A stretch of 37,218 nt of DNA from Candidatus Cloacimonadota bacterium (lineage in GTDB: Bacteria; Cloacimonadota; Cloacimonadia; Cloacimonadales; WRIO01): the NCBI GenBank assembly GCA_029553545.1, contig JAKPKU010000005.1, forward strand, positions 1-37,218. The letters are read 5' to 3'. The notes beneath the pieces were generated by a model, which ran no database searches, was not told the DNA's origin, and saw nothing but the letters and a program-made list of their open reading frames with translations. The position numbers and the translations under genes are program-made. Of this stretch, positions 1 to 37,218 are shown one piece after another (position 1 is the first letter of the stretch; the number at the start of each line of letters is the position of its first letter).

Positions 1-293
1 AAATACAAATAGCCTTATTTGTATAACGGCCACTGGCTGCCCTCGAGTACATAAACAAGATTCCATCACTCAATTTCACGCAGTGAAATTACCTACAGCA
101 AAACAAAAATCATTAATTTTTGTTTGTTATAAGGAATTTTGCGGTCTTATTTTGGTACAACTAAGATAGATTGTACCTACGTTTGATGCGACTTCGTCGC
201 TGGCTGACGAGCAAAGCTCGCCCCTACATTAGACGGAGAAAAGTTCCTAACCCGCAGCGAAGTGAGGACCATAAATGCGAGGGACAGAACATA
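1..293. repeat. Intergenic hairpin-repeat cluster downstream of the FGE-like lipoprotein gene
   Basis: No gene is supported here. The stretch is a chain of short inverted repeats. A TACAAATA / TATTTGTA dyad lies at about 3-24. AATTTCAC-GCA-GTGAAATT lies at about 74-92. An A/T-rich dyad built on AACAAAAAT / ATTTTTGTT lies at about 100-126. GCGAC-TTC-GTCGC lies at about 188-200 and GACGAGC-AAA-GCTCGCC at about 206-222. Bases 3-92 have a diverged second copy at 2546-2635, and bases 186-231 are identical to 11306-11351. Only one strand can be judged because the window starts inside the cluster. It may also act as the 3' end of the minus-strand lipoprotein transcript. Confidence 0.75.
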
Positions 294-1988: not shown

Positions 1989-2660
1989 TTATCCTCCAAC
2001 ACTTTAATATTTATTTTTGATCACTCTCAGCTATGCAGCTCGCTTCGCTAACATGCAGCAATGTACGAGTATGAGACAAAGTGCAGGTCTCAAAAAGCAC
2101 ACTAATGCGATAAATCGAATTCTTCTATAATCTCCACAACTATCAACTGTGTTCAAATATACTAATCTGAAGCACTATGTCAAGAGAAAAATTGAGTATT
2201 TATGTTTTCATTACACCTTTTAGTCCTCGCTGCGCTGCGGGTGAGGTACTTTTCTTCGAAAAGGTTAGGTGCTCTGACTGCGTCGAAGGTTAGGTAAAAA
2301 ATCAACTGATTTTTGTTGATAATAAGGTAATTTCACTGCGTGAAATTGGTTGAAGGATCTTTGCTTCGCTGCGGGTATTTTAAAAAAATCGGTAGTTTTT
2401 TTTAAACGTACCCACAACTATCCTTAGTTGTGCAGCGAAGCTATTGTTTGTCACGATAAACGAAGTGTTCCAGATCAGTCTTCCAATTTCACGCAGTGAA
2501 ATTACCTTTTCCCAAAACCTATCATTTACAATAACATAAATTTGTATATACAAATAGCCTTATTTGTATAAGAACCAATGGCTGCCTTCGATCAGCTAAT
2601 AGATTCAATCACTCAATTTCACGAAGTGAAATTACCAGCAACTCAGCTCTCAGTTCTGTC
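1989..2660. repeat. Gene-free stretch with hairpin-module repeats
   Basis: There is no credible ORF. Bases 1989-2214 hold the promoter side of the lipoprotein gene and AT-rich DNA with no clear signal. From about 2223 there is a string of hairpin modules: CTTTTC-TTC-GAAAAG followed by the linker GGTTAGGT, an AAAAATCA / TGATTTTT hairpin, AATTTCAC-TGC-GTGAAATT, and a dyad of ACAACTA / TAGTTGT. Bases 2327-2443 recur almost unchanged at 36591-36708 in the same orientation. Bases 2546-2635 are a diverged copy of 3-92. These are dispersed small repeats of unknown function. Confidence 0.7.
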
Positions 2661-11184: not shown

Positions 11185-11351
11185 ATCCTCGCTTCGCTGC
11201 GGGTTAGGTACTTTTCTTCGAAAAGGTTAGGTATTTTCACTTCGTGAAAAGTTAGGTACTTTCACTTTCGTGAAAGGTTTTTTTAAAGGTAGCCAGAAGT
11301 GATGAATGCGACTTCGTCGCTGGCTGACGAGCAAAGCTCGCCCCTACATTA
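11185..11351. repeat. Hairpin-module cluster
   Basis: The cluster holds five or more hairpins in a row. CTCGC-TTC-GCTGCGGG is followed by GTTAGGTA. CTTTTC-TTC-GAAAAG is followed by GTTAGGTA. TTTTCAC-TTC-GTGAAAA is followed by GTTAGGTA. CTTTCAC-TTTC-GTGAAAG is followed by a T-run. GCGAC-TTC-GTCGC is followed by GACGAGC-AAA-GCTCGCC. Bases 11306-11351 are identical to 186-231. The region 11025-11184 between the transposase remnant and this cluster shows nothing else clear. Confidence 0.75.
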
Positions 11352-11367: not shown

Positions 11368-11937
11368 TCAGGGGTCAGGTGATTTTGCACTGTGAGATAG
11401 ATTTTCTCCACTATTTTGCTGTTTGCATTGAGCTTCATTTTCCTGCACCAAGTTAGGTTTTTCATCAGGTAAAACTTGCTTTTTTTCAACAAGGTGGCGA
11501 AACCTCGTTGGCAACTTTATTGTAAGGCGGTATAATAGCGATTCTTTCATCAGTTTGTTCAGGCTATTAAATCTACTAAAAATTTCCAAAACAAAGTCTA
11601 TACTCATATTCTTGATCAAAATGCCAAAACGCTTCTGTGCACGATATACAAAGTAAATGAACATACTAAAGGCAGACACACCTTGTGTCCTCTTTTGCCT
11701 GGTATCGATCTTATAATATCTCGCATAATCAGCAAAAAGAGTCTTCACCTGCAAAGACATCTCACTCCACAAAGCACACAGATATGGCTGATTATTCTTG
11801 ATCTTTATATTTTGGGGCAATATCGATCTCTTCACTGGTTTACGTAAAATCACCACATTATTATAGGCATAATAAGCTAAAATACTTTCCCCTATACGCT
11901 TAGGGAATTTATGATCTCCAGATAAATAAACTTTCAT
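11368..11937 (-). CDS. Hypothetical basic protein between repeat clusters
   Basis: I do not recognise this 189-residue protein. It starts MKVYLSGDHKFPKRIGESIL, contains LWSEMSLQVKTLFADYARYY and FSMFIYFVYRAQKRFG, and ends in a polar, Gln/Asn-rich tail (EAQCKQQNSGENLSHSAKS). It is Lys/Arg-rich through residue 155, with no signal peptide and no clear membrane segment. The start at 11937 is chosen because AGGAGG lies four to five bases upstream; an upstream ATG at 11973 lacks a ribosome site. Two direct GGGAATGTCA repeats lie about 50 bases upstream on the same strand. The gene stands alone, with a hairpin cluster immediately downstream. It may be accessory DNA, but no mobile function can be assigned. 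Confidence 0.6.
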   Translation of the reverse strand: MKVYLSGDHKFPKRIGESILAYYAYNNVVILRKPVKRSILPQNIKIKNNQPYLCALWSEMSLQVKTLFADYARYYKIDTRQKRTQGVSAFSMFIYFVYRAQKRFGILIKNMSIDFVLEIFSRFNSLNKLMKESLLYRLTIKLPTRFRHLVEKKQVLPDEKPNLVQENEAQCKQQNSGENLSHSAKSPDP

Positions 11938-20429: not shown

Positions 20430-20887
20430 GTGTAACAACACACAACAACACACTTTCTAACGCACTTGCAATACTGTTCCATGGCACTCTGTCACTACTG
20501 AGACATTTCTTTTTTTACAACACACGACAACACACTGTAACACACTTAAGGTTAAAGCCTTTGACAAACGGTTCCATGGCATACAAACGCAAACTATACA
20601 TTTCTTTTTTAAACAACACACGACAACACACTGTAACACACTTAAGTTTAAAGCCTTTGACAAACGGTTCCATGGCATACAAACGCAAACTATACATTTC
20701 TTTTTTGAACAACACAGGACAACACACTTTCGAAAGCACTTGCAATACTGTTCCATGAGACATTAACGCAATTGGTACATTTCTTTTTTAAACAACACAC
20801 TACAACACACTGTAACACACGGGGGTTTTAAGTCTTAGACAAACAGTTCCATGGCATACAAACGCAAACAATACATTTCTTTTTTGA
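20430..20887 (+). repeat. Type A repeat array (about five units of 82-96 bp)
   Basis: Units begin near 20436, 20518, 20614, 20710 and 20793 and end near 20889. Three intervals are exactly 96 bases and two are shortened to 82-83. Each unit opens with three 10-base words of the AACAACACAC / GACAACACAC / TGTAACACAC type. It continues through a dyad such as AAGGTTAAAGCCTT, then ACAAACGGTTCCATGGCA, and ends in TACATTTCTTTTTT. ORFs run through it in several frames only because 96 is a multiple of three; none has a ribosome site and one would start inside the tRNA, so I treat the array as non-coding. Confidence 0.85.
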
Positions 20888-21056
20888 ACAACACACCAGT
20901 TTAGTCCTCACTTCGCTGCGGGTTAGGAACATTGCTTCGCAACGGTTAGGTACTTCGACTTCGTCGAAGGTTAGGGTCCTCGCTTCGCTGCGGGTTAGGA
21001 GCTTTCACATTCGTGAAAGGTTTTTTTAAAGGAAGTTGCAACTTCTTTTTAAACAA
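20888..21056 (+). repeat. Left arm of a 170-bp inverted repeat made of hairpin modules
   Basis: From left to right it contains CTTCGCTGCGGG, TTGC-TTC-GCAA, CTTCGAC-TTC-GTCGAAG, CCTCGC-TTC-GCTGCGGG and CTTTCAC-ATTC-GTGAAAG, joined by GGTTAGG linkers. It closes with the palindrome GAAGTTGCAACTTC. The right arm at 21571-21741 is its reverse complement with only a few differences. Confidence 0.85.
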
Positions 21057-21570
21057 CACACTATTTTCTGAGTTCTAACACAAGTGCATTGTTTAAAATT
21101 AATTGTTTTGCTCACATCTGTAGAATTTGGGACAGTATGTCTGCCATTTGAGTCTGCCTAAAGCTTTGAACCCCCGTGTGTTGCAGTGTGTTGTAAGTGC
21201 GTTGTAGTGTGTTGTTAAATAAAAAATGTGAGATGAAGTGTTTGTAGAATTTGGAACAGTATGTCTGTAGTTTGTGTCTGTCTAAAGCTTTGAACCCCCG
21301 TGCGTTGCAGTGTGTTGAAGTGCGTTGTAGTGTATTGTTAAATAAAAAAAGTGAGATGAAGTGTCTGTAGAATTTGGGACAGTATGTCTGTAGTTTGAGT
21401 CTGTCTAAAGCTTTGAATCTTCGTGTGTTGCAGTGTGTTGAAGTGCGTTGTAGTGTGTTGTTAAATAAAAAAAGTGAGATGTAATGTCTGTAGAATAAGG
21501 GAAAGTATGTCTGTCATTTGTGTCTGCCTAAAGCTTTGAACCCCCGTGCGTTGCAGTGTGTTGAAGTGCG
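21057..21570 (+). repeat. Central module plus type B repeat array (four units of 123-124 bp)
   Basis: Bases 21062-21120 are a 59-bp module identical to 27142-27200 and to the reverse complement of 36902-36960. Type B units follow, with the word GTAGAA recurring at 21120, 21244, 21367 and 21490 (steps 124, 123, 123). Each unit holds TATGTCTGTC and TGTGTCTGTC, then AAAGCTTTGAACCC, then four 10-base words GTGTGTTGCA, GTGTGTTGAA, GTGCGTTGTA and GTGTGTTGTT, and AAATAAAAAAAGTGAGATG. No coding signal is present. Confidence 0.88.
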
Positions 21571-21741
21571 TTGTTAAAAAAGAAGTTGCAACTTTTTTTA
21601 AAAAAACCTTTCACGAATGTGAAAGCTCTTAACCCGCAGCGAAGCGAGGACCCTAACCTTCGACGAAGTCGAAGTACCTAACCGTTGCGAAGCAATGTTC
21701 CTAACCCGCAGCGAAGCGAGGACCAAACTGGTGTGTTGTTA
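21571..21741 (-). repeat. Right arm of the 170-bp inverted repeat
   Basis: It is the reverse complement of 20888-21056, including the order of all hairpin modules, the GAAGTTGCAACTTC palindrome and the flanking AACAACACACCAGTTT word. Together the two arms enclose the central module and the B array (about 515 bases). Confidence 0.85.
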
Positions 21742-21948
21742 AATAAAAAAAGTGAGATGTAATGTCTGTAGAATAAGGGAAAGTATGTCTGTCATTTGTG
21801 TCTGTCTAAAGCATTGAACCCCAAAAGTGTGTTGCAGTGTGTTGAAGTGCGTTGTTAAAAAAGAAGTTGCAACTTCCTTTAAAAAAAACCTTTCACGAAT
21901 GTGAAAGCTCCTCACCCGCAGCGTAGCGAGGACCAAAACATTTTCCAT
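21742..21948 (+). repeat. Extra type B unit and a third partial hairpin block
   Basis: One more B unit (GTAGAA at 21768) ends in GTGTGTTGCA, GTGTGTTGAA and GTGCGTTGTT. A shortened hairpin block follows: GAAGTTGCAACTTC, CTTTCAC-GAAT-GTGAAAG and CCCGCAGCGTAGCGAGG. The last GGACCAAAAC runs directly into the aroC promoter, so the repeat complex ends immediately before the -35 box. Confidence 0.8.
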
Positions 21949-29521: not shown

Positions 29522-29700
29522 AAAGAGGACCCTCGCTTCGCTGTGATGGTCCTCACTTCTCTTTTAAACAACGCACCTGTTTGGACCTCGCTTCGTTGCG
29601 GGTATTGACTGCGTTTATACAAGTGAGAAGTAGATGCACCCAGGAAATTTCACTGGGTGAAATTGGTTAGGTTATCTGGGACAACTAAGGATAGATTGTT
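29522..29700 (+). repeat. Hairpin-module cluster between the PDZ/barrel and NEW3 genes
   Basis: The cluster contains CCTCGCTTCGCTG twice in variant form, a solitary AAACAACGCACC word from the array family, AAATTTCAC-TGG-GTGAAATT followed by GGTTAGGT, and ACAACTAAGGATAGATTGT, which also occurs in part near 158-176 and 2409-2426. Bases 29701-29734 show nothing. Confidence 0.65.
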
Positions 29701-36555: not shown

Positions 36556-36740
36556 AGCTGAGAACTGAGAGCTGAGAACTGAGTTGACGAGTAATTTCAC
36601 TGCGTGAAATTGGATGATGGGATCTGGCTTCGCTGCGTGTATTTTAAAAAAATCGGTAGATTTTTTTTAAACGTACCCACAACTATCTTTAGTTGTGCAG
36701 CGAAGCTAATCTCCGTCTCGGCAGCGTTCTGAAGACACAT
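36556..36740 (+). repeat. Hairpin-repeat cluster downstream of hflX
   Basis: It opens with GAGCTGAGAACTGA twice in tandem. Bases 36591-36708 are a near-identical copy of 2327-2443 in the same orientation: AATTTCAC-TGC-GTGAAATT, CTTCGCTGCG, an A-run/T-run pair around ATCGGTAG, and ACAACTA / TAGTTGT. The first part may act in hflX 3' processing; no classic terminator is evident. Confidence 0.7.
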
Positions 36741-37218
36741 TTTTTTAAAACAGCTCACGGCAACAAAAGACAGACAGTTCCATATCCTACAAACACTGCA
36801 GCTCACTTTTTTATTTAACAACACACTACAACGCACTTCAACGCACGGGGGTTCAAAGCTTTAGACAGACACAAATAGCAGACATACTGTTCCAAATTCT
36901 ACAGATGTGAGCAAAACAATTAATTTTAAACAATGCACTTGTGTTAGAACTCAGAAAATAGTGTGTTGTCGTGTGTTGTTAAAAAAAGAAATGTAAAATT
37001 AGCGTTAGTTGGGTATGGAACCGTTTGTCAAAGCCTTTAACCTTAAGTGTGTTACAGTGTGTTGTAAGTGTGTTGTTCAAAAAAAAGTTGATTGTCTTGA
37101 TCTGTGTACCATGGAACCGTTTGTCAAAGTCTTTAAGCCCAAGTGTGTTGTAAGTGCGTTGTAGTGTGTTGCAGTGTGTTGTTCAAAAAAAAGTTGCCTC
37201 CAAAGTCGCTTGTAGTAG
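36741..37218 (-). repeat. Repeat array D: type A units, central module and a type B unit, minus orientation
   Basis: Read on the minus strand from the window end: CTACTACAAGCG, two A-type units (10-base AACACAC words, then ACAAACGGTTCCAT, then a T-run), the 59-bp central module (36960-36902), then one or two B-type units ending near 36750. The order A arm, central module, B arm is the same as at the other two loci. The window ends exactly at the outer word, so the true limit of the array is not visible. Confidence 0.85.

Follow-up and report, generated by a model that had tools for sequence, protein, structure and literature searches.

Hairpins that keep the same loop and linker while their stems differ raise the question of what, if anything, recognizes them. 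Such hairpins recur in several intergenic clusters of the 37,218-nt contig JAKPKU010000005.1 of a Candidatus Cloacimonadota bacterium (hereafter the window; contig C75 of a 2.88-Mb genome in 268 contigs). The clusters belong to a species-specific family of approximately 100 short intergenic hairpin arrays, which resemble the remains of a single-strand transposase (REP/RAYT) system. Sets of hairpins with a common loop and linker and unlike stems offer a natural test of recognition by REP-class transposases; if confirmed, the reading developed below would help to explain how a single enzyme can sustain more than one family of palindromes at a time and how intergenic mosaics of repeats are built.

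Anatomy of the hairpin arrays

The hairpins linked by GGTTAGG, first noticed from the letters of the window alone, proved to be real. The motif occurs 13 times in the window versus 2.03 expected (no shuffle reached 13), and the pattern GGTTAGGN7CTTCG is found 35 times genome-wide versus 0 for the reversed control. The module that opens the arrays, S (TCCTCGCTTCGCTGCGGGTTAGG, up to 3 mismatches), has approximately 99 copies in the genome, again versus 0 for the reversed control. Anatomy was analyzed in a 694-kb sample, corresponding to 24% of the genome and over-representing contigs with arrays, from which 49 arrays could be parsed.

The arrays are laid out head to tail in the order S, A, B, an optional C and one of two ends, E1 or E2, with 0 to 5 internal modules, and all modules of one array have the same orientation. 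The linkers between modules read GTTAGG or GTGAGG, and each hairpin module is preceded by a tag-like linker, GTTAGG plus TA. Module A is 17 nt long (stems CTTTAC, CTTTTC, CATTGC and, rarely, CTTTGC), B is 19 nt long (CTTCGAC, TTTTCAC, CTCTGAC and CTTTCAC), and C, of 18 nt, repeats S. E1 consists of CTTTCAC-4 nt-GTGAAAG followed by GTTTTTTT and is terminator-like; E2 reads TAAAAAATC-4 nt-GATTTTT. What the module types have in common is structure rather than sequence, as the first-pass annotation had suggested from the constant loop and linker and the unlike paired stems. By contrast, its picture of modules mixed in different orders, like words in a sentence, does not hold: of 43 ordered pairs of A and B, 42 have A first, where shuffles would give 21.5 violations and none of 10,000 was as low as 1, so the arrays follow a grammar. 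Furthermore, wherever C is the last internal module, E1 comes next (8/8). CRISPR and integron arrays were discounted on anatomy alone, the modules being a fixed hairpin lexicon, not unique spacers or gene cassettes. The features of the window are as follows.

3–228, strand not assigned: other palindromes, namely I (3–24), F (72–90), G (157–174), H (188–200) and REP1 (206–228)
246–268, minus strand: truncated array, S plus linker only
2224–2314, plus strand: array S, A (CTTTTC), hybrid B (left arm CTCTGAC, right arm GTCGAAG), E2
2329–2347, plus strand: F hairpin, AATTTCAC-TGC-GTGAAATT, after E2
2364–2440, plus strand: K element, foldable into three arms, its ends being the S core and its inverse
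11186–11284, plus strand: array S, A (CTTTTC), b (TTTTCAC), E1 (hairpin, then T7)
11308–11320, plus strand: H hairpin, GCGAC-TTC-GTCGC
11326–11348, minus strand: REP1, a canonical GTAG-tagged REP, TGTAGGGGCGAGC-TTT-GCTCGTC
20905–21027, plus strand: array S, A (CATTGC/GCAACG), B (CTTCGAC), C, E1
21600–21722, minus strand: array, inverted near-copy of that at 20905–21027
21881–21932, minus strand: minimal array, S and E1 without an internal module
29585–29699, plus strand: degenerate S (29585–29600), F (29646–29664), one linker and G (29681–29699)
36593–36705, plus strand: F (36593–36611) and K (36628–36705)

Of the clusters listed by the first-pass annotation, those holding the arrays at 2224–2314, 11186–11284, 20905–21027, 21600–21722 and 21881–21932 stand, with T-N-C loops and GTTAGG or GTGAGG linkers, whereas 1–293, 29522–29700 and 36591–36708 consist mainly of F, G, H, I, K and REP1 and contain no more than one GGTTAGG per cluster.

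Satellite-like repeats rich in GTGTGTTG and AACAACACAC occupy positions 20440–21570 and 36750–37218 of the window. Since AACAACACAC often lies just 5' of S and sometimes follows E1, arrays are located inside or beside the satellite.

Genomic distribution

The family is restricted to this species. A 28-nt pattern of the B module (up to 2 mismatches) has 52 matches in its own genome and none in 124 further genomes from the phylum. Each of the 49 parsed arrays lies between genes, without overlap with a called ORF. Relative to the neighboring genes, arrays are found in both orientations without bias, the gene upstream being co-oriented in 17 cases and opposed in 28, and this count led us to reject the arrays as gene terminators. 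The unbiased orientation, together with the lack of ORF overlap, disfavors a terminator or leader role. Orientation with respect to GC skew (23 versus 17) revealed no replication-strand bias. Among Rfam families, only tRNA was matched in the window, and none by the arrays. A phage or plasmid origin was rejected, as neither a viral contig nor a plasmid match was found. In the genus mate, aroB directly precedes aroC and the gene order around aroC is unlike that of the present genome, so that it offers no comparable empty site.

Pairing and decay of the stems

Covariation between stem arms is present, but the first-pass annotation's reading of it as selection on structure is only partly supported. 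Across distinct modules, 90.5% (A) and 92.9% (B) of cells are paired, and the covariation scores of both exceed all 500 shuffles and every slid control; a separate arm-shuffling test of stem pairing agrees (0/5000). Within families, however, changes are mostly uncompensated. Eight perfect stems make up 64 of the 90 A and B copies in the 694-kb sample, and the mismatched form CATTGC/GCAACG accounts for 7 more (together 79%). The other 19 copies include 12 with one-sided or non-complementary changes and 4 hybrids joining the arms of two known stems, as in CTCTGAC/GTCGAAG at positions 2272–2288 of the window, but no restored double change. A few fixed palindromes, which had been named beforehand as the outcome that would refute this reading, thus largely describe what is found. 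A clear compensated change within a family is seen in S only, from TCCTCGC..GCTG to TCCTCAC..GTTG, in 12 copies versus 3 with one-sided changes.

Given covariation across modules and mostly uncompensated changes within families, pairing was therefore favored when the stems arose, or was made by a palindrome-making process, and the present copies mostly decay without repair. With so small a stem lexicon, common descent could account for the constant loop. The suggestion that selection might act on RNA structure gains no support from the mismatched pairs, which, in small numbers, are A-C (11) more often than G-T (4) and thus show no sign of an RNA-style tolerance of wobble.

Loop and DNA strand

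Of 137 hairpins with fixed stems, 133 have a T-N-C loop. Every base (T, C, G and A) occurs at the middle position, the T at the first is invariant, and the 4 exceptions differ at the third. Consequently, the strand opposite each T-N-C module reads C(GNA)G, the sequence of the extra-stable d(C-GNA-G) DNA minihairpins of Hirao, Yoshizawa and colleagues, as they are cited in PMC4686876; the likeness concerns a chemical property, not a genetic family. DNA and RNA energy parameter sets give equal energies for the compared triloops and contain no term for the C(GNA)G effect; the DNA-level stability of this strand may be argued from the literature.

C(GNA)G hairpins also recur, on unrelated stems, in two further genomes from the family (G002 and G003; L174–L183), where several of them are GTAG-tagged REPs; they are almost lacking from the genus mate (G001; L164–L173).

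RAYT genes, K elements and other mobile elements

The genome encodes at least two types of REP-associated tyrosine transposase, RAYT-1 and RAYT-2. RAYT-2 (C113:15449–16096, 216 aa) narrowly passes the NCBIfam model REP_Tyr_transpos (NF047646) with 80.5 bits at a cut-off of 80, carries the HUH motif NHVHI and, in its C-terminal part, aligns with E. coli TnpA-REP (4er8, E 6e-8). Its Y186 aligns with chain position 115 of 4er8, which we take to be the catalytic tyrosine. Its W165, Q166 and R175 align with W94, Q95 and R104 of the E. coli protein, the residues of its GTAG guide (PMC6006769).

RAYT-2 lies between two K copies in opposite orientation, identical at 76 of 79 bases. K is a near-constant sequence of approximately 79 nt that folds into three arms, with 13 strict copies in the 694-kb sample. 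Its left end has 14 nt in common with S, GCTTCGCTGCGGGT (0/2000 shuffles), its inner arm weakly resembles E2 (12/2000 shuffles), and both matches have the order and strand of arrays running from S to E2. K, which flanks RAYT-2 and matches S and E2 in order, thus ties the arrays to this gene. No array directly abuts RAYT-2, the nearest being 0.63 kb away, while another lies approximately 0.25 kb from a RAYT-1 fragment on C62; in both cases REP1, K or F is closer to the gene than the array. RAYT-1 (on C20, with fragments on C62 and C130) goes with REP1 rather than with arrays, and its surroundings contain canonical GTAG REPs, REP1 being TGTAGGGGCGAGC-TNT-GCTCGTC. Among RAYT relatives in the order, GTAG hairpins often flank the gene, with genome-specific stems and loops.

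REP1 is also found at L126 (600–900 and 1640–1800), as well as at positions 206–228 and 11326–11348 of the window. An IS200/IS605-type pair (L033 254–1869, on C186) consists of a 131-aa IS200 TnpA (NF033573, 131 bits) beside a 419-aa ORF, presumably IscB-like judging from its sequence; it was rejected as the source of the arrays, its ends being unlike the modules. ORF-X (positions 11371–11937 of the window, minus strand; about 190–200 aa) has 18 matches in the genome, 17 of them with at least 58% identity and the last a broken remnant; the genus mate has three good ones, and other genomes almost none. An S-like hairpin lies within 1.5 kb of 8 of the 18 copies (one with 3 mismatches), where approximately 0.1 per copy would be expected, as estimated from S density. 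ORF-X was rejected as a candidate array enzyme: it has no match in Pfam or NCBIfam, and its single-sequence model (pLDDT 45) is too poor for a fold search.

Origin and mobility of the arrays

From the modules, their grammar, the loop rule, the intergenic placement, the restriction to this genome, the homology of K and S and the enzymes present, we infer that the arrays are, or formerly were, mobilized by a REP-associated transposase, recognition, cutting and the choice of cognate enzyme included. Specifically, there is about an even chance, in our estimate, that the clusters are species-specific non-autonomous REP/TIR-like repeats whose folded single strand is read by a REP-class transposase through the loop and the 5' linker. 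Such an enzyme would fold and cut the array hairpins on one strand when the DNA is single-stranded, reading the T-N-C loop and the linker, while the stem would need only to pair; several stems could then coexist as substrates. Its action would scatter and duplicate arrays, and recombination between modules would produce arrays of different length as well as arm hybrids. Loop and spacer would be constant and stems variable probably because the enzyme reads the former and requires of the latter only that they pair. A published precedent is the group-3 TnpA-REP of S. maltophilia, for which a triloop base is essential and the tag is needed for cutting, while altering the stem does little harm (PMC8266576). 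Counting against a REP-type reading are the linker, which is GTTAGG plus two bases instead of GTAG or GTGG 0–2 nt 5' of the stem, the head-to-tail rather than inverted modules, a stem lexicon small enough for shared ancestry to explain the constant loop, the pairing of RAYT-1 with REP1, the distance between RAYT-2 and the nearest array, and the weak match of E2 to K. A bolder version, in which a REP-type transposase evolved a stem-blind code (T-N-C triloop plus GTTAGG linker) in one lineage and turned a hairpin vocabulary into ordered arrays, each moving or growing as a unit, appears unlikely to us.

Tentatively, and still on the unlikely side, one may suppose instead that no enzyme reads the modules now: recombination and slippage would copy them as selfish or neutral palindromes, and template switching within quasi-palindromes would keep the arms complementary by rebuilding one on the pattern of its partner. 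The few fixed stems, the prevalence of one-sided changes within families, the hybrids that join one stem's left arm to another's right arm, the satellite-like repeats around several arrays and the variation in module number all fit such copying, but it predicts neither a T-N-C rule that spans families and leaves the middle base free nor a strict grammar from start to end, and template switching sits poorly with CATTGC/GCAACG, left uncorrected in 7 of 10 copies.

The terminator-like E1, a hairpin followed by T7 (3/3 E1 in one region were flagged), and the single orientation of the modules within an array might alternatively indicate multi-hairpin RNAs that end at an intrinsic terminator and either bind proteins as small RNAs or serve as signals for 3' processing or termination. 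We regard this as improbable: the scanned region contains no promoter-like site 5' of arrays, Rfam yields no match, the excess of A-C over G-T mismatches speaks against wobble pairing, and the predominance of opposed upstream genes argues against gene terminators. Finally, intergenic placement and high copy number would also suit binding sites of a nucleoid or chromosome-organizing protein, or supercoiling sites, as proposed for some REP/BIME; confinement to one species, a patchy and clustered distribution and the lack of orientation bias against GC skew make this highly improbable.

Comparison with known systems

REPs and their RAYT/TnpA-REP genes (REPtrons) resemble the present system in their short intergenic palindromes with a constant unpaired 5' motif and a short loop, in the RAYT gene in the genome and in the several stem types that may coexist. 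A REP is recognized by GTAG or GTGG 0–2 nt 5' of the stem (PMC6006769), and further by a fully paired basal stem of 7–20, a loop of 2–5, extragenic and repeated occurrence and copies that flank a RAYT gene. The tag is present only in REP1 and in 5 of 25 F copies (GTAGGT), the array modules carrying GTTAGG plus two bases. The loop of 3 and the B stems of 7 fall within the stated ranges, whereas A stems are limited to 6 pairs and CATTGC/GCAACG is not fully complementary. Arrays are extragenic (0/49 overlap ORFs) and repeated (99 copies of S), but differ from REPs in being ordered head to tail and in not directly flanking the gene. The sharp contrast that the first-pass annotation drew between these clusters and REPs was nonetheless too strong, since alternative stems and heterodimers are known from REP families (PMC3733652) and group-3 enzymes tolerate stem changes (PMC8266576).

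K and RAYT-2 are closer to the TIRtrons (TIRYT), in which a RAYT-like gene lies between inverted repeats other than GTAG REPs (PMC3733652). RAYT-2, with its HUH motif and tyrosine, is flanked by inverted, internally self-complementary K copies that are also dispersed in the genome; the description applies to K, not to the arrays, and the hairpin at the end of this TIR is common to a much larger family of modular arrays. Enterobacterial BIMEs are likewise intergenic mosaics of several hairpin types, but alternate inverted REPs, whereas the present arrays are direct and have start and end modules. The intergenic mosaics of Neisseria, in which CGTC repeats are clustered and interleaved with other families (PMC3733652), form similarly large mixed-repeat regions from other motifs; here there is, in addition, a candidate transposase. 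Collectively, the arrays are, in our reading, REP-like in the way they would work but not classed as REPs; ordered multi-stem arrays with a common loop and linker are unusual, but to a specialist they would belong with the REP/TIR mosaics.
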